Source of the DNA: Microtetraspora malaysiensis
GTDB lineage: Bacteria; Actinomycetota; Actinomycetes; Streptosporangiales; Streptosporangiaceae
Length of the DNA stretch: 64,000 bases
Reading direction: 5' to 3'
NCBI RefSeq assembly: GCF_001528665.1
Contig: NZ_BBYJ01000020.1
Coordinates: forward strand, 1 to 64,000
This document shows, one piece after another, positions 5,968 to 19,787 of this stretch. A program made the position numbers and the translations under genes. The notes beneath the pieces are model-generated. The model was not told the DNA's origin, did not search any database, and was given only the letters and a program-made list of their open reading frames with translations. How positions within the stretch are numbered: the stretch's first letter is position 1; every line of letters starts with the position of its first letter.

Positions 5968-6444
5968 GTGGCCGCGATCAGAAGTAGCGTCTCGGCCCTG
6001 GGCGCACTCGTCATGTTGACAGCGGGATGCTCGGCGAGCGGTCCGTCCCAAGACGCCCGGCCGTCGTCCAACGCGTGCGTTTCCACCGTCACCCGGGACG
6101 CGCTGCCCATCTGGGCGAGGACGGGGTTCAGCGGTGACGGCTCGGGCGTCCCCCACGTGTTCAGCGAGCACGGCGACATCATCGCCGTGCTGTTCAATTA
6201 TCCGCCGGTAGCCTCTGCCGATCCCGACGTCACGAACAAGATCCTGTGGATCTCGCGGCTGCCGCAACAACCGATGCGGTCACTGACCATCGGGGCCGTA
6301 CTGCACGGAACGACGACGTCGGTGGTCCGCGAGATCGTCGGCGGCGCCGGGCCCTCGTCGGTCAACCTGCCCAAGGCGGGATGCTGGCACTTGACGTTGA
6401 GCTGGTCCGGGCACAGCGATGCCATCACGCTCAGGTTCACCTGA
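5968..6444 (+). CDS. Small exported lipoprotein, function unknown
   Basis: This 158-residue protein starts with a short lipoprotein signal peptide ending in the lipobox LTAGC (Cys near residue 20), so it should be acylated and anchored outside the membrane. The mature part has no motif I recognise; it contains two further Cys residues (SNACVS and KAGCWHL) that could pair. The GTG at 5968 was chosen because GGAG stands 7 bases upstream and because a start further upstream would lengthen the signal peptide oddly. It is the only gene in module E2. Confidence 0.6.
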   Translation: MAAIRSSVSALGALVMLTAGCSASGPSQDARPSSNACVSTVTRDALPIWARTGFSGDGSGVPHVFSEHGDIIAVLFNYPPVASADPDVTNKILWISRLPQQPMRSLTIGAVLHGTTTSVVREIVGGAGPSSVNLPKAGCWHLTLSWSGHSDAITLRFT

Positions 6445-6619
6445 CCGGAGAGGCATGGTGCCTGACAACTGCCTCCGCCAACGCAAGCGGAAGGTCGCAG
6501 CGTGCGGCCCGTAAGCTCGGGCCGCACGGCGGTGCGGAGCGCCGCCCTTGACACGCGGGTCATTAAAGTGCGACAGGACGCGGGAGACGGAGGCACGGCC
6601 GGTGCAGCACCCGCAAGCT

Positions 6620-6672
6620 AATGGCACCTTAATGGCACGAACGCCGCTTCCCATGATCTGGAAAGCGGCGTT
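6620..6672. other. int-side arm sites and hairpin before att copy 3
   Basis: AATGGCAC octamers at 6620-6627 and 6631-6638 (11-bp spacing) are followed by a hairpin with arms AACGCCGCTTCC and GGAAAGCGGCGTT. The same order occurs at 17736-17788 behind the integrase gene, but here no integrase precedes it. Confidence 0.6.
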
Positions 6673-6678
6673 TTGGCT

Positions 6679-7684: not shown

Positions 7685-7728
7685 GGTGGAGCCTAGGAGA
7701 TTCGAACTCCTGACATCCTGCTTGCAAA
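7685..7728. repeat. att copy 4: 3' end of tRNA-Ala(TGC)
   Basis: A 44-bp match to the tRNA-Ala 3' half, ending in CTTGCAAA. It is the distal end of module E4, whose other end is the intact tRNA gene. Confidence 0.88.
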
Positions 7729-7940
7729 ACGGCCCGATCTCCAGGGGAAACGGCCGCGACCTGGGCAAGAGGCAGTCCGCGAGTGACCGTGACTGCCCCC
7801 TGTTGTCCGCCCTTAATGGCCCGCTAATGGCCCGACGATCACACCCACGACCTGCGGCGGTGTGCCATGCGTGGCCCGTCTCCTGGACCGCCCCCGTCCT
7901 CCTCGTAGCTGCCGACCCCCAGGACGGGACCGCCGTGTCA
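7729..7940. repeat. Element-end arm region of E4, repeat of 5573-5785
   Basis: It carries AATGGCCC octamers at 7815-7822 and 7826-7833, again 11 bp apart but with C where copies 1 and 2 have A. The remaining bases to 8091 hold nothing I can identify. Confidence 0.65.
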
Positions 7941-8091
7941 GGGGTCAACGAAGTTGATCGCGAAGCGACGCCGCAGGCGCCCTTGACTCGGCGGGCACGT
8001 CCGGGACACTCAAGCAGCGAGGAGGACTGGGATAGCCAGATCAATATGGACGGTGCTGGTATTAACGCCTATATCGTCGTAACGTCGCCGT

Positions 8092-8307
8092 ATGCCAAAC
8101 GATCCAGAGTGGTTACCCTTCGCACCAGAGAATCACGACCCTCGCAGCATCGCGTTCCGAGAGGAGCGCTGTACCCAGCATGGTGTTGGGCCCGACAGAG
8201 GCCCTTGTCGCGAACCCGTGGTCGCAACTGTGAAGACCGGGCAAGGGCGACAGGCCGTTTGCGCCGAAGCCTTCGAGGAGCTGACCGGCCAACCATGGCG
8301 AGGCTAG
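8092..8307 (+). CDS. Small hypothetical protein
   Basis: This possible 71-residue protein starts at ATG. Three Cys and one His (CTQH, GPCRE, AVCAEAF) are spaced as in small zinc-binding proteins, but no family is recognised. There is no clear ribosome binding site. It lies in the transition from G+C-rich arm sequence to the AT-richer operon and may be spurious or a small accessory gene of that operon. Confidence 0.3.
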   Translation: MPNDPEWLPFAPENHDPRSIAFREERCTQHGVGPDRGPCREPVVATVKTGQGRQAVCAEAFEELTGQPWRG

Positions 8308-8530
8308 TTTCGTTAGCGGATGATGGCTCTCGAACACAACTAGTGGCAAGGGGACGTCGAGCGTCTGACGGAACCAATCCGGCATAACATTCGAACCAAT
8401 TTTCGTTTTAATGGCGCGAATCTCGCTATAAGCACTGTCGCTCATGACGTTGGTCATGGATCGCGGGTGTAACGAGCCTGCCGCAGTTGAGTATATGCGA
8501 GTAGTAGAGCTGTGATCAGTAAGGACTGAA

Positions 8531-9481
8531 GTGGATATAGATCGCCGTCCTGCGCTAGATCCTGGGAACGCGTTTGAGCAGACTTGTTGGAGCATACTTC
8601 GCCGCCGCTATCCTCCAGAAAAACTCGTCTACATCCCCGCCGAGATGGGTGGCGACGCCGGGATTGAAGGCTATTCGACGGACGGCATTGCATATCAATG
8701 CTACGCCGATCGAGATTCACTAACCCTTCGCAATCGAACAGATAAGCAGAAGGGCAAGCTTTACGACGATACCGTTAAACTAAAAAAGTATGCTAGCAGA
8801 CTTGAGGAGCTCCTCAACGGCTTGATTCTTGAGCACTATTTTCTCATGGTGCCGGAATTTCATGCAGCCGAACTTGTTTCATATGCCCACAGTCGTGCAG
8901 CTGTCGTCCGCGAGTATGGATTGAGTTTTATTAGTCCCACCTTTGCTATTCATATTAAGACACTACACGACTATCCGTCGGAGCTCCGCGCGGCTCTGGC
9001 GGATGGAGCTGCCAAAGCTGCGGTGCCACCTCCGCTAGTTAACGCCACAGAGGTAGGGTTGTTTCCCTCAGATAAGCCGCATCTTGTGACTGTTCTGGAG
9101 AGAAAGCTAGCGGTCCTCAAGGCTTCCACTCCGGAAGCTGGCGTTCGTGCTTTGCGTGATCGATTTATTCGCGCCTTCCTGCAAAAAGAAGGGGTCATGG
9201 CTTCGCTGCGCGACTGGCCTGACACTTGGGAAGCCGTAGAGCTTCGCCGACAATTGCGCGAAGAATATCTAGAAATTGAAAGCGAACTGAGTCCAGATGA
9301 TCCAAGTTCGCGAATGCTAAGCCTTATAAAATCCTACCAAGCCGATTTGGAAGCACACGTCTCGGGTATTCGTGAGCCAGATGCCCAAAGAATCGCATTA
9401 GGCCAAGTAGGCGACTGGCTGATGCGTTGTCCGCTAGATTTCCGGGCGGCGTCACGAGTGCGCCTCATTCGCTCGATATAG
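8531..9481 (+). CDS. ABC-3C/Lamassu-type effector with restriction-endonuclease-like N terminus
   Basis: This 316-residue predicted effector is the first gene of a three-gene operon. Residues 13-60 look like a PD-(D/E)XK nuclease core: Glu16 in NAFEQ, then GGDAGIEGYSTDG (Asp42, Glu46) and YQCYA at 55-59, the place where these nucleases usually have Q-x-K. The usual Lys is not visible there, so catalysis is uncertain. The rest (60-316) is alpha-helical and charged and would bind its partners. The GTG start has AAGGA upstream. The next frame begins inside this gene (55-base overlap). Base composition is clearly more AT-rich than the flanks, suggesting transfer from elsewhere. Function as an anti-phage nuclease is inferred from operon type. 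Confidence 0.7.
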   Translation: MDIDRRPALDPGNAFEQTCWSILRRRYPPEKLVYIPAEMGGDAGIEGYSTDGIAYQCYADRDSLTLRNRTDKQKGKLYDDTVKLKKYASRLEELLNGLILEHYFLMVPEFHAAELVSYAHSRAAVVREYGLSFISPTFAIHIKTLHDYPSELRAALADGAAKAAVPPPLVNATEVGLFPSDKPHLVTVLERKLAVLKASTPEAGVRALRDRFIRAFLQKEGVMASLRDWPDTWEAVELRRQLREEYLEIESELSPDDPSSRMLSLIKSYQADLEAHVSGIREPDAQRIALGQVGDWLMRCPLDFRAASRVRLIRSI

Positions 9482-9939
9482 AGGAACTCTTAGACGTTCC
9501 ATTTCGATTCGTTCGTCAACCTGATCCTGTCCCGCCGGCGCTACGGCCGGAGCGTCGTGTTGCACTCGTTCTTCTTCTAGTAGCGAAATGCCACGGCTCG
9601 GGTGCTAACTGGAAGGTACTGCAACTCTTGAGCTGGGCTATTCGCGACGACGAACACAGTGCTCTCTTAGTGGCGCTTCTGAATGGTCGTGATCACCCTG
9701 GACAACCGGTGGTTCGCTTTGAACCTGCACTGGATCGGGCTCTAGACCTGGCAGTGGGCATCGGCTTGCTTGAGCAGAAATCCTCTCGAACTTTCAAGCT
9801 AACCCGTGAGGGGAAACGTGTCGTGGACTTAATTAACAAGAGTCCGGCATTCGCAAAAGAGCGCGAACTCCTAGCAAGCATACCGGGAAAACTGACCAAG
9901 AAAGACACTGACCGTATCTATGAGTGGCGGACAGCATGA
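9427..9939 (+). CDS. ABC-3C middle component (small winged-helix-like protein)
   Basis: This protein of about 170 residues lies between the nuclease-like gene and the ATPase gene, overlapping both (55 bases and 4 bases). The central part, with short helices and a basic segment SSRTFKLTREGKRVVDLINK near residue 120, is compatible with a winged helix, as described for the middle components of ABC-three-component systems. The start is uncertain: the TTG at 9427 has no good ribosome binding site and conserved-looking sequence begins around residue 25. Its likely role is to bridge effector and ATPase. The family call rests on position and size more than on sequence. Confidence 0.6.
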   Translation: MSARFPGGVTSAPHSLDIEELLDVPFRFVRQPDPVPPALRPERRVALVLLLVAKCHGSGANWKVLQLLSWAIRDDEHSALLVALLNGRDHPGQPVVRFEPALDRALDLAVGIGLLEQKSSRTFKLTREGKRVVDLINKSPAFAKERELLASIPGKLTKKDTDRIYEWRTA

Positions 9940-11969
9940 GCAGGCTGCGCTTTCGCCATCTCCGGCTGCGAACCGAGACGGGTCGAGGTCGATTCGGAGC
10001 TGATATCCCTATCGGCGATGGCCTTATGGTCTTATGGGCAGATAACTCGCGCGGCAAGTCCACTGCAGTTCAAAGTCTGCTCTTTGCTCTCGGGCTTGAA
10101 CGAATGATAACCGCACGACCAATCCATGCGGTCACGTCGGCTATGCGCGAAAGGTTGATATATGACGTAACCACAAAGCGCGAGACACCAGTCCTTTCTT
10201 CATGGGTGACTGTGGAGATTGAGGGCAAGGATGGTAAGATCGCGACCGTCACTCGTTGGATCAAGCATGAACAAATGAGCCCGAGTCTTGTGCGAGTAGT
10301 CGAAGGGCCGGCTATATCTGCTCCTGGCAGCTATAACAGCCAGGACTTGTATGTAGGCCGCCCAGGGGCTGCCGCTAATCCGCGCGGCTTCCATCGCTGG
10401 CTTGCATCATTCATCGGTTGGGAAATGCCCGAATTACCAGGGACCGATGGACGCATGTCTCGGCTGTATATGGAGCAAGTATTTCCGCTCCTATTCGTGG
10501 AACAACGGCGGGGATGGGGCGGAATTCAAGCTCAGATGCCTTACTTCTCGGGTGTTACGGACGTCCGTCTTAGATCGATCGAATTCCTCCTGAATTTAGA
10601 CGTTGGCAAGATGGAAGCTGAACGTTTGCGGCTTCGAGCGCAAGAGACGAAGCTTCAAGAAGCCTGGCGATCCGCTGTGCGGGCTTTCAAGGAGATTCTC
10701 CGTGGCAGTGGCCTCATTACCTTCCAATTGCCGGAGACGTTAACTGTTGCCTGGCCGCCACAAGAGACACCTTCGCTAGCGGAGAGTAGGGATTCGGGAT
10801 GGGTCCCTATGACTGATGTCCTGAGAGAACTGGAGGAGGAACATAGACAGCTCACAGAAGCCGTGGTTCCGCGTGTTGCTGATATCGAGCCTGAGACCGA
10901 GCATCGGCTTGCCGAAGCACTCAACAATCTCGATGAGCTGCGTGAGGCTGGTTCTTACATCAGAGATGATATCCTGCGCGATCGTACCGAGTTCCATTCA
11001 CTGGAGAACCGCTTAGATGCCCTGAAGGAGGATCTTCGCCAGCATCAAGATATTCTGACTCTTCAGCGCCTCGGCTCAGATGAGATCGGCCGACTACATG
11101 GCGATTGTCCAGTTTGTCATCAGCAGCTTCCCGAATCTCTCGTCGGTGCCCCATCGCCGGTGCGCACTTTGAGCCCAGAGGATACTGTTTCTTATATCAA
11201 GCAACAGATTGAACTTTTCCATATTATGGCTAGGGATGCCGAAATTACGCTGAATGCGAAGGAGGAGCGATGGGCCGCCATACATGGCAGGACGGCGGAA
11301 CTGAACTCACTTGTCAGAGCTCTTCGAGCAACACTCGGCGCACCTAGGGGAACTCCGTCCATAGAGATAATCACACGTCAAGTGCAACTGCGCGAGCGCA
11401 TCGATCGGCTGCACTCGATAAATGAGAGATTCCTTGAGCTGATCGGCGAATTGACCCGCATCGCCGATGACGCGCGCTTGATTCGAACCGCAATGAAAGA
11501 TCTGCCGGCGGACAGGCTCTCAGATGCCGATCGCGAAAAACTGAGCGGTCTAGAGCGTTCTTTCGTGCAACAGCTCCACGCCTACGATTTCGGTTCATTC
11601 TCAGATGAGCGGTTGCGGATCTCTGACGTGGACTACTTGCCGAGACGTGATGACTTCGACATTCAGGCTGATATTTCTGCTTCTGATTCAATCAGAGTGA
11701 TCTGGGCTTATTTGCTGGGCCTCCTGGAAGTGTCGAATCGAATGGAGACAAACCACCTGGGACTGCTGATCCTGGATGAGCCGAGACAGCAGAGCGCAAA
11801 GGAGATATCATTCAGGGCGCTCCTTGATCGCGCATCTAGGGATGCGGAGGGTCGTCAAGTAGTCTTTGCGACATCCGAGGCGCTTTCGTCGCTGAGAGGG
11901 ATGCTCTCTGATATCCCCCACCATCTACATGTCATCGATGGCTACGTCCTGAAGCCTGTTTCGGAGTAG
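9936..11969 (+). CDS. SMC/Rad50-like ATPase with zinc-hook motif (ABC-3C/LmuB-like)
   Basis: This 677-residue ATPase is the third gene of the operon. Near the N terminus lies Walker A in WADNSRGKSTAVQSL (Lys41). Long charged coiled-coil-like stretches run from about 210 to 560 and carry a Rad50-type hook CPVC at 391-394. Walker B LGLLILDEP (Asp614, Glu615) lies near the C terminus. This is the architecture of LmuB-like and ABC-3C ATPases, which bind DNA ends or unusual DNA and control a nuclease partner. The ATG at 9936 overlaps the previous stop (ATGA); a GTG at 9924 would add 4 residues. Codon use is AT-richer than in the neighbours, as in the whole operon. Confidence 0.82.
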   Translation: MSRLRFRHLRLRTETGRGRFGADIPIGDGLMVLWADNSRGKSTAVQSLLFALGLERMITARPIHAVTSAMRERLIYDVTTKRETPVLSSWVTVEIEGKDGKIATVTRWIKHEQMSPSLVRVVEGPAISAPGSYNSQDLYVGRPGAAANPRGFHRWLASFIGWEMPELPGTDGRMSRLYMEQVFPLLFVEQRRGWGGIQAQMPYFSGVTDVRLRSIEFLLNLDVGKMEAERLRLRAQETKLQEAWRSAVRAFKEILRGSGLITFQLPETLTVAWPPQETPSLAESRDSGWVPMTDVLRELEEEHRQLTEAVVPRVADIEPETEHRLAEALNNLDELREAGSYIRDDILRDRTEFHSLENRLDALKEDLRQHQDILTLQRLGSDEIGRLHGDCPVCHQQLPESLVGAPSPVRTLSPEDTVSYIKQQIELFHIMARDAEITLNAKEERWAAIHGRTAELNSLVRALRATLGAPRGTPSIEIITRQVQLRERIDRLHSINERFLELIGELTRIADDARLIRTAMKDLPADRLSDADREKLSGLERSFVQQLHAYDFGSFSDERLRISDVDYLPRRDDFDIQADISASDSIRVIWAYLLGLLEVSNRMETNHLGLLILDEPRQQSAKEISFRALLDRASRDAEGRQVVFATSEALSSLRGMLSDIPHHLHVIDGYVLKPVSE

Positions 11970-12317
11970 CTTGGGCGGCCTGCAGTATGCGGGTTCGGGT
12001 GTAGGCGTTGGACTCGGTACGTCGGAGTGAACTAACTACTCCCCGGTAAGCGACATTGTTCTTCTAATCTTCACCTGATTAGTTAGGTTCCGCATCCCCT
12101 GTCGGATGCAAGCGGTGGCACGGCGCCGTATGTAGTGCGCTCGCTCGGCTGCGGGGCGATGGTGTGCGACAGGCGGCCCGAGCTGCTGGCGGCCGGGACC
12201 GGCCCCCCAGGCCGCATGCCCGGCCGCCGGGCGGGCGCAGCGCCGCCCTTGATCCTTAAAAGCTCAATTCGGCAATGATCGGCCGAGCTGTCTGCGTCCG
12301 GTGGTAGACCGTTGGTC
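11970..12317. other. Non-coding stretch between the ATPase and XRE genes
   Basis: It holds the hairpin CTAATC-N7-GATTAG (12064-12082) and a very G+C-rich segment around 12170-12245. Composition switches here from AT-richer to G+C-rich, which marks the right edge of the acquired operon. No gene is seen. Confidence 0.5.
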
Positions 12318-13147
12318 ATGGAGGATCGGCGGGATCGGTTGCGGGAGCTGGGCGAGCTGCTGCGGCGGCTGCGTAAGGATGCAGGGCTGACAGGTAAGGA
12401 CCTGGCGCAGCGGGCCGGGGTGGCTCAGCCGACGATCTCTCGGATGGAGACCGGGCGACTGCTGCCGACTCCGGAGACGGTTGAGCGGGCGCGGCGCTTG
12501 ACCTCGACGAGGACAGGCGGCGTGAGTTGGACGCGCTGCTGCTGCGGCTGCGTGATGAGGTGTCCCGGTTGAAGAGTGGGCTTGCCGGCCGAGAGGCGGC
12601 GAACGCCGCACGGGTTCGCTCGGCTCAATGGATGGCCGTGTTCTCCTCGGCGATGATTCCGCCGCTGTTGCAGACGGCCGAGTATGCCCGGCTCGCTCTC
12701 TCGATCGGCCAGGATGTGGACCAGGACGACGCGGCCAAGGCTGCGGCCGTACGGGTCGAGTCTCAGGCCGTCGTGTTCGAGCCTGGCCGGAAGTTCGCGT
12801 TCGTGCTGACGGAGGGTGCGGTGCGAACGTGGCCGGGCTCGCCGTCCTTGATGCCGGCGCAGCTCGACCGGCTCGCCCAGGTGTCCACGCTTCCCCATGT
12901 CCGCCTGGGGGTCGTGCCCTGGAACGTGGAAGCGCCGGCCTTCCCCCTCCACGGGTTCACGATCTACGACGGCTCGGTGAGCGTGGTCGAGAGCCTGACC
13001 GGTGATCTCACCCTGACCGAGGTCGGGGAGATCGACACGCATATGGACGTCTTCGAGGCGTTCGCTGCCGCCGCTGTGTATGACGATGCCCTGCGGGATC
13101 TTCTAGGGCAGACCGGTACGGACTACCGCGCTCTCGCGAGCAAGTAG
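12318..13147 (+). pseudogene. XRE-family regulator with DUF5753 domain, broken by a frameshift
   Basis: The first frame (from ATG 12318) gives an XRE helix-turn-helix: LRRLRKDAGLTGKDLAQRAG, then VAQPTISRMETGRLLP. About base 12500 the reading must shift by one base to continue into ELDALLLRLRDEV and a complete DUF5753 sensor domain (for example MIPPLLQTAEYARLAL and LPHVRLGVVPWNVEAP) ending at 13147. A single missing base after CGCTTG explains it. It is either a true pseudogene or a sequence error. Intact homologues usually sit beside a DUF397 gene; none is adjacent here (the DUF397 gene at 19548 is outside the island). Confidence 0.8.
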
Positions 13148-13250
13148 CCAGTTCTGGCGCATTTATACGTCGAATGCCTTGAGCAGTTTCTAGCGTTGGT
13201 CATACGCTGCCGACATGGATGCATAGCCCCCTATACACAGGGGTACGCCC

Positions 13251-13658
13251 ATGTCAGGCTGGCGAATGTCCCGCCACTTCCTCGGCTCCCCCGCCTCGAT
13301 CACCGAAGCCCGCCGCTTCGTCACCATCTTCCTGAAGGGTTGGCCGTCCCTCGAATCGGCTGAACTCATCGTCAGTGAACTGGCCACCAACGCCGTACGA
13401 CACTCGGCCAGCGGTCGATTCGGCGGGATGTTCATCGTCACGATCCGCGTCAACCACCGGCGGCTGTGGCTCGGTGTCGCCGACGAGGGAGGCCCCCGCT
13501 CCCCGGAACTGCTCCCCGCCTACGAAGAGGCCGGAGGCGGGCGCGGCCGCATGCTCGTCTCCACCCTGGCCACCGGATGGGGTGTCCTGGGCGACCACAA
13601 CGGCCGCACCGTGTGGGCCGTCCTCGACCCCGCCCCGGCCATGGCGGCCGGCAGATGA
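13251..13658 (+). CDS. RsbW-like ATP-binding protein
   Basis: This 135-residue single-domain HATPase (GHKL fold) is of the anti-sigma-kinase type common in actinomycetes. The N box SELATNAVRHS is near residue 45, GVADEGG is the D-x-G box, and GGGRGRMLVSTLATGWGV is the glycine-rich lid. In RsbW/SpoIIAB proteins this fold phosphorylates an anti-anti-sigma factor; no STAS protein is nearby. It overlaps the next gene by 4 bases. A PP2C phosphatase in the same island raises the possibility of a partner-switching circuit, which is inference. Confidence 0.75.
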   Translation: MSGWRMSRHFLGSPASITEARRFVTIFLKGWPSLESAELIVSELATNAVRHSASGRFGGMFIVTIRVNHRRLWLGVADEGGPRSPELLPAYEEAGGGRGRMLVSTLATGWGVLGDHNGRTVWAVLDPAPAMAAGR

Positions 13659-13927
13659 GCGACTGCGTCGCACCGCACCTGTCCTTGCCGCAACCCAACT
13701 GCCGCGAGCTGAAGTGGTTCGAGTTCGTATCTGGCGACCGGTGCCGTGCGGTGGCGTGGACGTGTGACTGCACAGCCAGGTTCTACGAGCTGTACGCGAT
13801 GGCCGGCGTCGGATTCATCCGCCGCACCATTCAGAGGACTCCGATCTCGATCGTCGAGACGAACCGCTGGCCGCTCCGGCAAGCTCGCGAGGTCTGGGCG
13901 GACATCATGGCTGGACGGGCGAGATGA
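13655..13927 (+). CDS. Small hypothetical protein coupled to the RsbW-like gene
   Basis: This 90-residue protein of unknown function has several Trp and Cys residues (CRELKWFEF, RAVAWTCDCTARFYEL). Its ATG overlaps the stop of the RsbW-like gene, so the two are probably made together. It resembles no domain I know. Its stop comes just before the operator-like palindromes that precede the HTH gene. Confidence 0.55.
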   Translation: MSDCVAPHLSLPQPNCRELKWFEFVSGDRCRAVAWTCDCTARFYELYAMAGVGFIRRTIQRTPISIVETNRWPLRQAREVWADIMAGRAR

Positions 13928-13995
13928 GCCCGCGCGGTGTCCCTAACCGACACTCCGCCATACGGGCAACGAATCACAAAACGGGTGAAGTCATA

Positions 13996-14037
13996 CCGTC
14001 TAGAGGGATAGACGGCATTCTGTCCAGGGGTCTAGAC
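13996..14037. promoter_or_regulatory. Paired palindromes upstream of the HTH gene
   Basis: CCGTCTA (13996-14002) and TAGACGG (14009-14015) form a perfect inverted repeat with a 6-base spacer, and GTCTAGAC at 14030-14037 is a second palindrome sharing the GTCTA core. They lie 28-69 bp before the ATG at 14065, a good position for an autoregulatory operator. Confidence 0.5.
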
Positions 14038-14064
14038 TCGGCGGAGTTCAACCCTGGGGGAGCA

Positions 14065-14904
14065 ATGCCACCGAGCGACATTGAGCGCATAGCCGCCATC
14101 GACGATCCGTACCTGCTGCTGCGGACCGCCACCGAACGGCTCAACGCCGCTCAACAAGAGGTCACCGAGTTGGCTCGACTCCGCCGCCGCGTGATCCAAA
14201 AACTACACGCGCAAGGCATGTCCTACGCGCAGATCGCCCAGGCGGCCGGGCTCACCCGTGGCCGGATCCACCAGATCCGCCACACCGGCCCGGCCCCTGA
14301 AGGCGCGTTCCTCGGCACCGGCACCATCACCCTGGCCACCCCGCTCAAGCGCGAAGCCACCAACGCCCGCCCCGTCGTCGCGATGGAAGACGTCGCAGCG
14401 GCCAAGCGGCTGGAAGACCTCGCCCGCGGCTTCGGCCTGTCGATGGAACTCGAACACGTCCCCCTCGGCGGCGAGATCGACCTCAACCGGCCCAACCTCA
14501 TCGTGATCTGCGGCCCCAAACTCTCCCCGGTCATGGGCGCGCTGTACGAGACCGATCCCGTGTTGGATTGGGTCAAGGACGGCGCCTGGACGCTGCGCGA
14601 CACCCGCACCGGCACGATCTACCGGTCCGGCTCCGACAGCGACCCGGCCCGGCCGGTCGACTACGCCTATCTGGGGCGGCTGCCCCGGCCGGACGGCAAG
14701 GGCAACGTCCTGGTCTTCACCGGCATCCACCCGCAAGGCACCCTCGGCGTGGTCCAGCTCATCACCACCGAGATCGCCACCCTGTGGGGCCAAGCAGGGG
14801 ACGGGCGCTTCTCCACGGTGGTCGGCGTCGAATACGACCCGGAGACAGGGGAACCAGTCACAGCGGAACTCGCCAGTCCGCTCTACCGCCACGAGGACAC
14901 CTGA
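14065..14904 (+). CDS. HTH protein with uncharacterised C-terminal domain, paired with PP2C
   Basis: A 279-residue protein. Residues about 20-75 are a coiled helix followed by a sigma-region-4/IS-type HTH (MSYAQIAQAAGLTRGRIHQI). Residues 110-279 form an alpha/beta domain I do not recognise (NLIVICGPKLSPVMGALY, then NVLVFTGIHPQGTLGVVQLI), suggesting a Rossmann-like ligand sensor. ATG 14065 was chosen over upstream frames because GGGGGAG precedes it. It overlaps the PP2C gene by one base (TGATG). It probably binds the palindromes at 13996-14037. Regulator of the island or of a stress response are both possible. Confidence 0.6.
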   Translation: MPPSDIERIAAIDDPYLLLRTATERLNAAQQEVTELARLRRRVIQKLHAQGMSYAQIAQAAGLTRGRIHQIRHTGPAPEGAFLGTGTITLATPLKREATNARPVVAMEDVAAAKRLEDLARGFGLSMELEHVPLGGEIDLNRPNLIVICGPKLSPVMGALYETDPVLDWVKDGAWTLRDTRTGTIYRSGSDSDPARPVDYAYLGRLPRPDGKGNVLVFTGIHPQGTLGVVQLITTEIATLWGQAGDGRFSTVVGVEYDPETGEPVTAELASPLYRHEDT

Positions 14905-15746
14905 TGCGCGTCACCTTCGCCACCGAACCCGCATCCCCTGACCGGCTCAACGAGGACTTCATCGCCGCAACCCCGGACGCTGTTGTCCTCCTCGATGGTG
15001 CAGGTACGCCCGCGGGCTCGGAGTCCGGCTGCTCCCATGGCGTGGCCTGGTACGCCCGGACCCTCGGCTCAACACTGATCGCGTCCCTGACCCAAAGTGC
15101 CGGCACCTTGACGGAGATCCTTGCGGAAGGCATTAAGGCCACCACATCACTGCATGACTTCACCTGCGACGTGAACCATCCCGGCTCGCCCTCGGCAACC
15201 GTTGTCATGCTCCGCCGTACGGGCGAGGTGCTGGACTTCCTCGTCCTGGCCGACTCCGTCCTCGTGCTCGACGTGATCGGCACAGACGATCCAATGGTTA
15301 TTACAGATGAACGCGAGAGCCAGGTCGGCAAGCGCTACCGGACATCGATGGACGCGCTCGACTCTGGCACACCCCATCACACCGCCGCTCTGCGGACATA
15401 CGTGGAAGCCATGCGAGCGCACCGCAACCGCGACGGCGGATTCTGGGTCGCCTCATCCGACCCCCTCGCCGCCGAACAAGCACTCACAGGCACACTCCCC
15501 GCTGACCAGATTCGCGCGGCAGCGCTCCTCAGCGATGGCGCATCCCGCCTCGTCGATCGCTTCGGACTCGCCACCTGGCGGCAAGCCCTCGACATCCTCG
15601 CCCAGGGCGGACCCGCCGAACTTGTCCGCCGGGTCCGCGATGCAGAACGGTCCGACCTCAACGGCAAGCGCTGGCCTCGAGGCAAGACCTTTGACGACGC
15701 GACGGCGGCACTGATGGTCGGTTCTCCCCAGGGAAAACACAGGTGA
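14904..15746 (+). CDS. PP2C-family protein phosphatase
   Basis: This 280-residue predicted Mg/Mn-dependent Ser/Thr phosphatase has the metal-binding aspartate motifs in order: LNEDFI near residue 15, VVLLDGAG near 32, LADSVLVL in the middle, LLSDGAS near 205 and DDATAALM near the C terminus. There is no membrane or sensor domain, so it is a soluble single-domain enzyme. Translation is coupled to the HTH gene through TGATG. The likely substrate is a phosphorylated partner such as the HTH protein or a target of the RsbW-like kinase at 13251. The pairing suggests a signalling unit carried by the island. Confidence 0.75.
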   Translation: MRVTFATEPASPDRLNEDFIAATPDAVVLLDGAGTPAGSESGCSHGVAWYARTLGSTLIASLTQSAGTLTEILAEGIKATTSLHDFTCDVNHPGSPSATVVMLRRTGEVLDFLVLADSVLVLDVIGTDDPMVITDERESQVGKRYRTSMDALDSGTPHHTAALRTYVEAMRAHRNRDGGFWVASSDPLAAEQALTGTLPADQIRAAALLSDGASRLVDRFGLATWRQALDILAQGGPAELVRRVRDAERSDLNGKRWPRGKTFDDATAALMVGSPQGKHR

Positions 15747-15794
15747 TCGGCTCTCGCCAAAGACGTGGCCGTGACGACACTCTTCGCTATTCGA

Positions 15795-16664
15795 TCAGCG
15801 AAGCACCTGTGCCGCTCCGCCCTGGTCCGGCTGGTTTATCGGTACATCGTCGAAGTCCACAACCTCAGATGCCGGAGGTGCCACGATCTTCACCTTTGCA
15901 TTCCAATGGTGGTATCGAGTATCCACCACCTGGGTACTCGGCTTCCTGGCCAGATTGCCGTCAGGGTCAAGGACATACACCATTGCTTCGTACTGCGTAA
16001 TCAGACGGACAGGCAATCCCTCCTTGCTGATGAACAACCTGAACGAGATCTTGTACTTGTCCGGGTTCATGGGCCCTAGCCCGGCGTACAGATCCTGAGG
16101 AGTCTTGAGGGTGCCGCGATACTCGCCTGAGCGGAAAGAAGCGGATTTCGAGATCACGGACTTCAGCCTTGCGGGGTTGAGAGTGTCTACAAGTTGATCG
16201 CCGCGCTGACCGTAACTTCCCCAGTGTGTGTTGTTCTTGCCGAACCTGATCCAGGTCGTTCCTTCAGGCATCGGACCCCAGTTCAAACCGTGGACACGGA
16301 CACCCTGGACATAGGTGTAGCGTCCCATGTTGACTGCGCGAATGGGTGTCCTCATGGCTTCCGCCTCTTCGTCGGTGAGGGTGGCCTTGAGCCCGGGGAT
16401 GATCTTCATCTTGGATGTGAGGTCATAACCGACTACGCCAGACTTCCCAAACCCGACCGTGCCGGTGGTCCGCCTGATGTAGGTCTGCTTGGAACCCTTG
16501 ATGGTCGTCCGGCTCGTCTCTGAAACCAGAACCCCTCGCCCGGCCACGAACTGCCGCCTGAGAGCCTGGATCGGATTGACGGCGGATGCGGCAAGAGCAG
16601 TGCCCGTGTCGGTAAGCAGGACCGCGAGCATACCGAGCACGACGACGACGTTAAGACGCTTCAT
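15795..16664 (-). CDS. Secreted LolA/LppX-like protein
   Basis: This 289-residue exported protein has a Sec signal peptide (basic MKRLNVVVVLGMLAVLLTD, cleavage after ALAA near residue 26) and no lipobox. The mature part is rich in beta-strand-like segments (TIKGSKQTYIRRTTGTVGFG, YKISFRLFISKEGLPVRLIT), like the LolA/LprG/LppX fold of lipid or hydrophobic-molecule carriers. AAGGAGCG precedes the ATG. It is transcribed against the other island genes and towards the phosphatase gene. Function unknown. Confidence 0.6.
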   Translation of the reverse strand: MKRLNVVVVLGMLAVLLTDTGTALAASAVNPIQALRRQFVAGRGVLVSETSRTTIKGSKQTYIRRTTGTVGFGKSGVVGYDLTSKMKIIPGLKATLTDEEAEAMRTPIRAVNMGRYTYVQGVRVHGLNWGPMPEGTTWIRFGKNNTHWGSYGQRGDQLVDTLNPARLKSVISKSASFRSGEYRGTLKTPQDLYAGLGPMNPDKYKISFRLFISKEGLPVRLITQYEAMVYVLDPDGNLARKPSTQVVDTRYHHWNAKVKIVAPPASEVVDFDDVPINQPDQGGAAQVLR

Positions 16665-16906
16665 ATCGCTCCTTGAGCTAAAGCAAGCGATAGAAATCTT
16701 GTCGCCTTTGAATCACGTAGTGATCTCGGAGTTCGTTAGATTAGTGCTCTACGTTCACATTTGGGACACTTTGCGGGATAGATCGAGGACTGCCGGAACC
16801 GCCTCGGCGGAGTTCAGGTGCTCGTCACAACCTCGGCCGCCGACCACGTCACGGCGGAGGATGTGGAGTTCGCGCGGGCTCTGGCGCGTGAGGCGGCCTC
16901 GGTGGG

Positions 16907-17737
16907 GTGGCGGTCGGCAAGCTAACCACACCGATGGTGCGTTCATGGCGGGCCAAACTCATCAACAAAGGTGTCTCGGTGTCCACGGCGGCCAAGGCAT
17001 ACCGCCTGCTGCGGGCCGTGCTCATGACGGCGGTAGAAGAGGACAAGCTGATCAGCCGGAACCCCTGCCGTATCAAGGGCGCGGACAACGAGCAGACGCC
17101 GGAACGTCCCATCCTCACCGTCGCCCAGGTCTTCGAGCTATCTGACCGGATGGACGATCGCCGCTTTCGTGCGTTGATCCTGCTCACCACGTTCGCAAGC
17201 CTCCGGTGGGGCGAAGTGATCGCGCTGCGCCGGTCGGACATCGACCTCAAGGCGCGCACGGTCCGGGTGCGGGAACAGCTCATCGAACTGGACGGGGGAG
17301 AGATGGTGCTCGCGCCGCCCAAGTCTCGGGCCGGCAAGCGGACCGTCAGCATCCCCGCCGCGATCGTTCCGGCACTGTCTGAGCATCTCGCCGAGTTCGT
17401 CGAAACGGCGGACGACTCGTTCGTCTTTCTCGGCAAGCGGGGCGCATTCCTACGCGGCGGCAACTTCCGGCGTGAGGCGCGCTGGTCGAAAGCCCTGGCC
17501 ACGATGGGAGTCAAGAGCCTGCACTTCCACGACCTTCGGCACACCGGCAACACACTCGCCGCGCAGTCAGGCGCGAGCCTCGCCGACCTCAAGGCTCGGA
17601 TGGGGCACGACAGCGACCGTGCGGCGCTGATCTACCAGCACGCCACCCGCGACGCGGACCAGAAGATCGCTGACGCGTTGAGCGCCCGGGTGGAAGCTGA
17701 GCGCAAGGACTCAGAAGATGCTCCGGCCAGACGCTAA
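16907..17737 (+). CDS. int: Tyrosine integrase of E4, N-terminally shortened
   Basis: A 276-residue site-specific recombinase. It retains part of the core-binding domain (LTTPMVRSWRAKLINKG) and the whole catalytic domain: Arg in FASLRWGEV, HDLRHTG (H-x-x-R-H), MGHDSD and the nucleophile Tyr in ALIYQHAT. Full-length relatives begin 80-100 residues earlier with an arm-binding domain; here upstream bases 16665-16906 do not read as integrase and contain a short unrelated reading fragment at 16816-16925. Start at GTG 16907 is formal only. The stop overlaps an arm octamer beside tRNA-Ala, the normal layout. Ability to recombine is doubtful without the N terminus. Confidence 0.8.
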   Translation: MAVGKLTTPMVRSWRAKLINKGVSVSTAAKAYRLLRAVLMTAVEEDKLISRNPCRIKGADNEQTPERPILTVAQVFELSDRMDDRRFRALILLTTFASLRWGEVIALRRSDIDLKARTVRVREQLIELDGGEMVLAPPKSRAGKRTVSIPAAIVPALSEHLAEFVETADDSFVFLGKRGAFLRGGNFRREARWSKALATMGVKSLHFHDLRHTGNTLAAQSGASLADLKARMGHDSDRAALIYQHATRDADQKIADALSARVEAERKDSEDAPARR

Positions 17738-17788
17738 TGGCACGTTAATGGCACGAACGCCGCTTTCCTTGATCCGGAAAGCGGCGTT
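17736..17788. other. int-side arm sites and terminator next to tRNA-Ala
   Basis: AATGGCAC at 17736-17743 and 17747-17754 is followed by a perfect hairpin (AACGCCGCTTTCC, GGAAAGCGGCGTT) and TTTT, so it can end int transcription. The layout equals that at 6620-6672. Confidence 0.7.
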
Positions 17789-17793
17789 TTGGC

Positions 17794-17869
17794 TGGTGGA
17801 GCCTAGGAGATTCGAACTCCTGACATCCTGCTTGCAAAGCAGGCGCTCTGCCAACTGAGCTAAGGCCCC
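17794..17869 (-). tRNA. tRNA-Ala(TGC)
   Basis: The complementary strand folds as a full cloverleaf: acceptor GGGGCCT/AGGCTCC (one G-U pair), D arm AGCTCAGTTGGCAGAGC, anticodon loop with TGC, T arm containing GTTCGAATC, and encoded CCA. Its 3' 44 bp (17795-17838) are the attachment core repeated at four sites to the left. Insertion regenerates the 3' end, so the gene stays functional. Confidence 0.95.
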
Positions 17870-19055: not shown

Positions 19056-19448
19056 TCACGAGACGGGGGTGGACAGGAGCACCCTCGTACCTTCGGGCCC
19101 GGTACGGATGTTGACATCGGAGAGCCGGTGCATCAGCCAGATCCCGCGGCCGCCGAAATCGAACCGAGACAGGCGCTTGCGATGCAGCGAGCGGTCGGGG
19201 ATGCCCGGCCCGCTGTCGGTGACCTCGCAGCGCAGCACGCCCGGCTCTCTCCACATGGCGATGCCCCGGGGGGCGTTGCCGTACCGGACGGCGTTGGTGA
19301 CCGCCTCGTGCACGGCGAGAACGTAGTCCTCCAGCGCCATGCCGGTCAGGCCGGCGTTGCGGGCCGAGTCGGTGACCATGTGCCGGACCATTGTGATCGT
19401 GCTGCGGTCGAACTCCAGGCTCAGGAGGGTGCCCGACACCTCGTCCAC
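19056..19448 (-). CDS. ATP-binding protein of the RsbW/anti-sigma type
   Basis: This protein of about 130 residues consists of one HATPase domain: VHEAVTNAVRYGNAPRG (N box), VTDSGPGIPD (D-x-G box), FGGRGIWLMHRLSD (lid). The GTG start chosen (19448) has GAGAGG before it; an upstream start would add a basic, unconserved extension. Such proteins act as anti-sigma-factor kinases or regulators in actinomycetes; the partner is not encoded next to it. Confidence 0.75.
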   Translation of the reverse strand: MDEVSGTLLSLEFDRSTITMVRHMVTDSARNAGLTGMALEDYVLAVHEAVTNAVRYGNAPRGIAMWREPGVLRCEVTDSGPGIPDRSLHRKRLSRFDFGGRGIWLMHRLSDVNIRTGPEGTRVLLSTPVS

Positions 19449-19547
19449 CGCCTCTCGCCGTCTGCGGCTTTCGTCTCTTTTGCCGATACCTCTACTAACC
19501 GGCGAGGGCCGCCTGACACATCCTGCGGACAATCGGCTGAGGAAAGC

Positions 19548-19787
19548 TCAGTCGCCGAGCAGATCGTCGAACTCGCCGGCCTTGACCGCGTGGGCGAAGA
19601 GACGCAGGTCTGCGGCTCGGTAGACGAGCGCGGGCCCCTCGGGGTGCCGCGAGTTCCGCATCGCCACGCCGCCGCCGGGCAGCGGCGCGAGTTCGACGCA
19701 GTTGCCGTTCGGGTTGCTGTACCGGCTCTTGCGCCAGGGAAGGTCGCCCAGTTCGGCGCACGACGCTCCGTTGGGGAAATCGGTCAT
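19548..19787 (-). CDS. DUF397 domain protein
   Basis: This 79-residue protein has the DUF397 signature: WRKSRYSNPNGNCVELAPL, then VAMRNSRHPEGPALVYR and a final helix with FAHAVKAGEFDDLL. In actinomycetes these small proteins are usually coded next to an XRE-DUF5753 regulator and act with it. Here no such partner is adjacent; the only one in the window (12318) is frameshifted and 7 kb away in island E4. Confidence 0.88.
   Translation of the reverse strand: MTDFPNGASCAELGDLPWRKSRYSNPNGNCVELAPLPGGGVAMRNSRHPEGPALVYRAADLRLFAHAVKAGEFDDLLGD

Follow-up and report, generated by a model that had tools for sequence, protein, structure and literature searches.

What does a short gene cluster that combines a kinase-like ATPase, a helix-turn-helix (HTH) protein and a phosphatase control, and is it a switch of its own or part of something larger? 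This question is raised by positions 13,251 to 15,746 of a 64,000-nucleotide stretch from Microtetraspora malaysiensis (assembly GCF_001528665.1, contig NZ_BBYJ01000020.1, positions 1 to 64,000), which as a whole is called the window here. A preliminary description had proposed a phospho-switch carried by an island, consisting of a GHKL kinase-type protein with a coupled small protein, palindromes, and a coupled pair of HTH protein and PP2C phosphatase. Comparison with related genomes revealed that these genes form one conserved cassette together with a gene for an XRE-DUF5753 regulator, which is located just 5' of the HATPase gene and had been missed before, as had a conserved frame in front of the HTH start. 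This cassette is the control block of a pSAM2-like family of conjugative elements of soil actinomycetes (actinomycete integrative and conjugative elements, AICEs), in which, judged from the sequences compared, the HTH protein probably controls the transfer genes via one shared operator sequence. An isolated island phospho-switch was ruled out by the recurrence of the cassette within AICEs.

The genome search comprised 149 genomes, and a second scan of named genomes gave 193 relatives, of which 80 were retained; a neighbour was counted if its gene was located no more than 3 kb from the HTH gene. In the first search, the HTH protein was matched in 47 of the 149 genomes, often over the HTH itself alone, and PP2C homologues were present in 77. 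Among the best 24 loci, including that of the window, genes for the HATPase and the PP2C adjoined in all cases and the DUF5753 gene in 23, while in the more distant full-length loci L025–L029 neither HATPase nor DUF5753 was found and a PP2C gene was present in two of the five. Of the 80 named loci, 78 have a PP2C gene beside the HTH gene, 77 a HATPase gene, and 76 a DUF5753 gene; 74 have all three. The two pairs of the preliminary description, whose rare co-occurrence would have spoken against it, therefore occur together as a rule. In two of the three loci without a HATPase gene, fewer than 200 bp precede the HTH gene. The XRE gene was considered as the first gene to decay, and this idea was dropped: the initial flags (XRE in 6 of 80 loci, PP2C in 2) proved mostly to be artefacts on recheck, the flagged stops falling either in the part by which the query extends upstream or where the gene naturally ends a little sooner. 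After this recheck, one XRE gene was broken (L098), three were partial at contig ends, and four were absent, two of the latter at loci located at contig ends. In the literature searched, which covered few subscription papers, the cassette was not found described among the matches listed.

Downstream of the PP2C gene, relatives carry an FtsK/SpoIIIE gene followed by genes for RepSA, an excisionase, and an integrase (FtsK, RepSA, Xis, and Int being identified by Pfam), often with an adjoining tRNA gene. Counted over the 67 of 80 loci with at least 9.8 kb of downstream sequence, the transfer gene (tra) was present in 53 and the replication gene (rep) in 52, both together in 52; 45 loci contain the integrase gene (int), and 44 the full set of three. 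Fourteen loci revealed neither tra nor rep, and ten of them have a tRNA gene 1.7–4.2 kb downstream. The first gene of the transfer operon occurs in a Streptomyces type (D126), which belongs to the SCO3933 family (116 bits against an NCBIfam cut-off of 80), and in a Streptosporangiaceae type (D138), for which no family name was obtained. SCO3933 is given as homologous to Pra in PMC8584621.

Two boxes of a 16-bp operator, GTCTAG-N4-CTAGAC, emerged when the DNA preceding the HTH gene was aligned for Streptosporangiaceae-type loci. In the window they correspond to the palindromes noticed earlier, which are indeed inverted repeats (Table 1); an inverted-repeat search with 10-nt arms misses them. 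Boxes were counted with up to two mismatches within 160 bp upstream of a gene start, omitting genes whose start is no farther than 170 bp from the left end of their locus. Under these settings, 77 of 77 HATPase genes have a box upstream (in relatives GTATAGCCCCCTAGAC or a similar sequence), as do 77 of 79 HTH genes and, for the first transfer-operon gene, 38 of 38 (D126) and 25 of 27 (D138), or 63 of 65 together; up to three boxes precede the transfer operon. Other sites amounted to 36 in 1.37 Mb, and about 0.0045 were expected per 170-bp interval. The exact form GTCTAGGGNNCTAGAC was found in 15 of the 149 genomes, at the HTH cassette in all except G112. In the source genome, the two boxes of the window are the sole sites with at most one mismatch, and 26 others have two. 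The -35-like and -10-like hexamers in the window are spaced by 18 bp, and both are overlapped by boxes.

Overall, we consider it likely from these comparisons that the cassette is an AICE regulatory block with the HTH protein as operator-binding transfer regulator, the PP2C as its partner, and ATPase and XRE protein as an added input. The HTH protein would bind GTCTAG-N4-CTAGAC and, when bound, would control, most likely repress, the operon it belongs to, the promoter of the HATPase gene, and the transfer operon, taking the place that KorSA has in pSAM2. The PP2C would act on the C-terminal domain (CTD) of the HTH protein, or be controlled by that domain, and would reset the regulator. The RsbW-type ATPase with its XRE partner would provide a further input by which the HTH protein is released, either by anti-sigma-like binding or by phosphorylation, whereupon the transfer genes would be expressed. 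In pSAM2, KorSA sites are placed by PMC8584621 in the regulator's own promoter and in that of pra, which precedes the functions for transfer and replication. The boxes of the cassette precede the HTH gene and the SCO3933-type gene, where binding of the HTH protein is predicted. KorSA, however, belongs to the GntR/HutC type and has a UTRA domain, whereas the cassette regulator combines a sigma-4-like HTH with a GH67N/BcsB-fold domain, with a PP2C and an RsbW-like ATPase as coupled enzymes. As the literature searched described AICE transfer control in detail only for the pSAM2-type KorSA/Pra system, the cassette would represent a second, widespread arrangement. Its operator is readable, and with a defined regulator and a dedicated phosphatase it makes the question of induction directly testable; it possibly ties phospho-signalling to the spread of elements with anti-phage cargo.

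Table 1. Features of the cassette and of the surrounding element in the window
Feature	Position	Strand	Remarks
Left att-like repeat	7685..7728		44 bp of tRNA-Ala 3' end
LmuA, Lamassu-like	8531-9481	+	PADLOC 3e-20
LmuC, Lamassu-like	9427-9939	+	PADLOC 3e-15
LmuB, Lamassu-like	9924-11969	+	PADLOC 3e-97
XRE-DUF5753 regulator gene	12312..13147	+	HTH_31 7e-16, DUF5753 2e-30 on two pieces (Pfam)
Operator box, degenerate GCATAGCCCCCTATAC	13221..13236		3 mismatches; ~15 bp 5' of HATPase start
RsbW/SpoIIAB/AbaA-like HATPase, 135 aa	13251..13658	+	Pfam HATPase_c_2 7e-10
Small open reading frame, 90 aa	13655..13927	+	Overlaps HATPase stop
In-frame leader of HTH gene, MSPRGVPNRHSAIRA...	13924..14064	+	Overlaps stop of small open reading frame
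Operator box GTCTAGAGGGATAGAC	13998..14013		1 mismatch; overlapped by -35-like TAGACG at 14009-14014
Operator box GTCCAGGGGTCTAGAC	14022..14037		1 mismatch; -10-like TAGACT at 14033-14038
HTH regulator, 279 aa	14065..14904	+	Frame open from 13924; Pfam Sigma70_r4 2.6e-5
PP2C phosphatase, 280 aa	14904..15746	+	Pfam PP2C_2 4e-6; TGATG overlap with HTH gene
Left side of deletion junction	16804..16901		~4.36 kb missing relative to L033
Tyrosine integrase, 5'-truncated	16907..17737	+	276 aa vs 388 aa in L033
Right att-like repeat	17795..17838		Inside tRNA-Ala(TGC) gene 17794-17869

The HTH protein itself is composed of two parts. Residues 22–75, approximately, revealed a sigma-70 region-4-like HTH (predicted local distance difference test, pLDDT, of the model 92), while the C-terminal part showed no Pfam match at E values up to 1 and no Foldseek match at 1e-3 or better (best E 2e-3). 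This part had been listed as an unknown domain, which no longer applies, since structure comparison of the predicted model matched residues 77–266 to an alpha/beta domain of the GH67N/GH20b/BcsB fold. The best partners were the N-terminal domain of a GH67 glucuronidase (1k9e; Z 11.2, root-mean-square deviation 2.4 over 123 residues) and a BcsB domain (7l2z; Z 11.0, root-mean-square deviation 3.6 over 127 residues), with accessory domains of GH115, GH84, and GH20 ranking below both; as far as the model goes, this likeness carries no functional information. No GntR or UTRA family was matched in Pfam at E values up to 1. Ser154 and Ser250 of the protein are invariant. A phage origin of the HTH protein was also considered and rejected, as no match was obtained in 50,697 phage records or in four IMG/VR contigs. 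The leader peptide in front of the HTH start (MSPRGVPNRRSAIRA-type) is kept in most Streptosporangiaceae-type and Streptomyces loci, with a related version in Actinomadura, and its frame is shortened or lost in L047, L049, L052, and L099. It is either an N-terminal extension, in which case the operators are located inside the coding sequence, or a coupled leader.

The resemblance to sigma-70 region 4, together with the annotation of plasmid-borne relatives as sigma-70 family, would also fit a sigma-like protein or a class II activator of transfer, whose activity is set by PP2C and HATPase and for which the boxes, at -10/-35-like positions and up to three before the transfer operon, serve as activator sites. 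We regard such an activator as rather unlikely: boxes lying over both the -35-like and the -10-like hexamer are a better fit to repression, family searches gave no match to sigma region 2 in the window protein, and the pSAM2 protein in the equivalent position, KorSA, acts as a repressor (PMC8584621).

With respect to the enzymes, the GHKL assignment of the first gene product was borne out by Pfam and by profile matches to the structures of RsbW (8e-8) and SpoIIAB (4e-7). Residues E43, N47, D78, G80, G97, and G99 are invariant in 24 sequences, and we take E43 and N47 to be the catalytic Glu and the Mg-binding Asn of the N box. The protein thus has, as judged from these matches, an RsbW/SpoIIAB-type GHKL kinase fold, and kinase activity is predicted. 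It was also alone among the cassette proteins in matching a PHROG (1e-14). The coupled small open reading frame (ORF), also present as described, gave no match in Pfam and other family searches and was found in 28 of the 80 named loci, exclusively in Streptosporangiaceae-type genera. In the PP2C, whose start codon overlaps the HTH stop codon, the Asp motifs reported before are conserved: D18, D31, D117, D211, D264, and D265 are invariant in 26 sequences including that of the window and, based on PP2C motifs, are presumably metal ligands. Its model (pLDDT 94) matched PPM phosphatases such as PstP at about 1e-10 in Foldseek.

With the GHKL Ser-kinase fold, the Glu and Asn of the N box, and a PP2C, the cassette resembles the RsbW-RsbV-RsbU and SpoIIAB-SpoIIAA-SpoIIE systems, but differs in having neither a linked STAS antagonist nor a complete sigma factor; the partner would be the HTH regulator instead. 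The reported absence of a STAS protein was confirmed, with neither a STAS nor a STAS_2 match on the contig of the window, and because no STAS gene is linked, the circuit is unlike classical partner switching. A complete element (G007:C29) gave no STAS_2 match either. Elsewhere the source genome revealed six STAS_2 and six STAS matches, and host-encoded STAS proteins may be partners of the cassette enzymes. The folds of both enzymes are shared with PstP-type PP2C and with the RsbU-RsbW proteins of the Rv1364c/SigB type, from which the cassette is set apart by low identity (9–17% for the PP2C in Foldseek) and by its mobile-element context.

The PP2C might also target host phosphoproteins rather than the HTH protein, its linkage to the HTH gene then reflecting co-regulation only. 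PP2C proteins of 62–71% identity are encoded in five genomes without an HTH match, no other cassette gene being found in three of these five stretches, and no RsbW-like gene was present at the four plasmid loci read. However, 22 of 24 plasmids and 78 of 80 named loci retain the order HTH-PP2C, and in Streptosporangiaceae CTD and PP2C co-diverge beyond XRE and TRA, so that a host target is as doubtful to us as the activator. A strict pairing of HTH and PP2C in both directions was ruled out by the same five genomes. The stretches L119, L121, and L122 carry such a PP2C gene with no other cassette gene found, and L118 and L120 harbor XRE or small-ORF relics.

Distances between cassette proteins were correlated for the 53 of 80 loci that contain all six genes. 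Partial correlations were 0.62 for HATPase and XRE and 0.55 for CTD and PP2C. In the 17 Streptosporangiaceae loci, CTD and PP2C reached r 0.76 (partial 0.74, p 0.002), with 0.19 for CTD and HATPase and 0.06 for CTD and HTH(N). On the level of sequence distances, this suggests two coupled pairs, HTH CTD-PP2C and HATPase-XRE, which are not cleanly separate over the 53 loci. ATPase and XRE resemble a WhiJ/AbaA-type pair that has been added: as in the WhiJ-BldB-AbaA system of Streptomyces, an XRE-DUF5753 protein adjoins an AbaA-type HATPase, whereas the window cassette has no DUF397/BldB gene and, in its place, a small ORF without a family match.

In WhiJ-AbaA style, the XRE-DUF5753 protein could therefore be the one that reads the operator, modulated by the HATPase, with HTH-PP2C as a separate output. 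Adjacency and co-divergence of XRE and HATPase, the box located between their genes in 77 of 77 loci, the lack of a box in L099, which has no XRE, and the binding of WhiJ9 to DNA repeats near a neighbouring gene (PMC10294661) fit this view. Apart from the WhiJ9 sites being described as direct repeats, it is made unlikely by the promoter of the XRE gene, where a box was found in 2 of 72 loci only, by a complete element of Murinocardiopsis flavida (L110/L117), in which HATPase, HTH, PP2C, and the boxes are retained and no XRE was found, and by related repeats at plasmid-borne and other HTH loci where XRE was not found. Since the boxes persist in L110/L117 and since L114 as well as plasmid HTH loci have repeats of their own, the HTH protein seems the likelier operator reader.

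In L114, the HTH gene (37% identity) and a D138-FtsK-RepSA operon are divergent, and GTAAGGGCCCTTAC and GTAAGAGGTCTTAC lie between them. The HTH protein was further detected in 24 plasmid records, 22 of which have the PP2C gene directly 3'. In four plasmids read, the HTH gene is divergent from a longer operon, which contains an annotated FtsK gene in pXL100, a conjugative coupling gene in pVMKU, and in pRL1 a gene with a weak FtsK-type match (26%, 4e-6) and no Pfam match; that of the fourth plasmid revealed nothing decisive for transfer. Neither HATPase nor XRE was found on these four plasmids, and two annotated ATP-binding proteins on the plasmids read turned out to be AAA_33 and Schlafen AlbA_2 proteins. 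With regard to the control circuit suggested in the preliminary description, the mobile island and the lack of a linked STAS gene stand, but not a single kinase-phosphatase unit, as HTH-PP2C occurs on plasmids, the four read showing no HATPase or XRE, and as in Streptosporangiaceae the CTD co-diverges with PP2C and not with the HATPase. The plasmid promoters hold repeats such as GTTAACGGGGG, GTCAACCCCC, and GTCAAGCCCCC. Compared with shuffled sequences, 5 of 200 shuffles reached the inverted-repeat count of L139 and 7 of 200 that of L114, and the signal was weak in L136 (19 of 200) and L138 (55 of 200). As further observations, a complete extracytoplasmic function (ECF)-type sigma factor with regions 2 and 4 heads the divergent operon of L137 (Micromonospora maris pVMKU, 6054-6674, minus strand), and in the plasmid matches H50-H65, many from Streptomyces, the PP2C is annotated as 'integrase' or 'UTRA domain-containing protein', apparently by misannotation.

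Several observations weigh against the HTH protein as operator-binding transfer regulator with a PP2C partner and an added ATPase/XRE input. The repeats upstream of plasmid-borne and distant HTH genes differ in their letters, and two of six such regions (L137 and L115) showed no excess of short inverted repeats at the threshold used. In L114, no HATPase, XRE, or PP2C gene was found, but its sequence stops 1.2 kb beyond the HTH gene, and partners may follow there. A box is also absent from L099, which has neither XRE nor HATPase, although the promoter region of this locus is replaced. Apart from the scarcity of boxes before XRE, no box was found upstream of rep in any of 53 loci, as measured from the blast-derived rep start; in five Streptomyces loci, a box is located between 47 bp before and 392 bp inside the aligned rep start. 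Over the 53 loci, partial correlations of 0.39 for PP2C and HATPase and 0.27 for CTD and HATPase (both above permutation, p 0.002) blur the two pairs, in 20 Streptomyces loci the partial correlation of CTD and PP2C was 0.32 (p 0.08), and adjacency or linkage of neighbours may account for part of the co-divergence. The PP2C genes in genomes without an HTH match belong here as well. Finally, the window copy may be partly dead, because the G2 box of its HATPase reads GRGR, with R for L compared to GRGL in nearly all relatives, and because its XRE gene is broken, being split into two frames by a 4-bp deletion near 12490 in the alignment to Microtetraspora fusca (L033).

The window copy is a broken-down AICE remnant. 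The 3' end of the tRNA-Ala(TGC) gene occurs in five direct copies (1524, 5529, 6681, 7685, and 17795), a tandem att array suggesting that elements have repeatedly accreted at a single tRNA gene. In the unit from 7685 to 17838, which carries the Lamassu-like genes, the cassette, and the truncated integrase gene, no match to tra, rep, xis, or the first transfer gene was obtained, and the stretch deleted at the junction corresponds to L033 13106 to 17467, covering tra, rep, and the first part of int. While relatives show the pSAM2-like set of integrase, FtsK/TraB, and RepSA near a tRNA gene, the window copy has no intact set. With the transfer genes gone, its cassette can now target nothing but itself or incoming elements that share the operator.

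In the 14 core-less cassettes, i.e., those without tra and rep, the genes are largely intact (all 14 have an intact HTH gene, 13 an intact HATPase gene, 13 an intact PP2C gene, and 12 an intact XRE gene), and the ratio of nonsynonymous to synonymous substitution rates (dN/dS) was 0.08–0.18 in two core-less pairs. Two Nonomuraea loci (L049 7763-11957 and L050 7121-11684) harbor the cassette without tra or rep on about 4.2–4.6 kb between repeats; the two cassettes are 94–95% identical, compared to 80–87% in the flanks, and these repeat-bounded units are possible mobile mini-elements. A more far-reaching proposal, which we put forward tentatively and consider improbable, is that a STAS-less partner switch governs conjugation, in which the RsbW-type ATPase as anti-repressor would capture or phosphorylate the sigma-4-like HTH repressor and the PP2C, matched to the GH67N-fold domain of that repressor, would reset it, core-less cassettes being immunity or satellite units because many elements share one operator. 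If so, core-less cassettes such as those of the window and of the two Nonomuraea would silence or exploit incoming AICEs.

The region upstream of the HTH gene holds cargo. In the relatives L031-L110, it is located 1.8–8.5 kb upstream of that gene and carries many varied defence genes, e.g., restriction-modification (RM) genes, BrxH, SduA, a CBASS cyclase, HEC-01A, SspD, and Druantia and DISARM methylases; a scan of the longest 90 of 234 upstream ORFs against PADLOC matched 264 families at 1e-8. That the cassette itself is a defence, addiction, or superinfection-immunity module rather than a transfer control is very unlikely, for although such genes adjoin it (the Lamassu genes of the window included) and although the core-less copies are largely intact with low dN/dS and, in Nonomuraea, more alike than their flanks, its operator ties it to transfer promoters and PADLOC gave no match for HATPase, small ORF, HTH, or PP2C.

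Between the PP2C and integrase genes of the window, a 289-aa secreted-looking protein without a Pfam match is encoded (15795-16664, minus strand), homologues of which occur in L033, L042, and L049 at different places. A second RsbW-like HATPase together with a DUF397 protein is encoded at 19056-19787 (minus strand), on the chromosomal side of the tRNA gene and outside the element.

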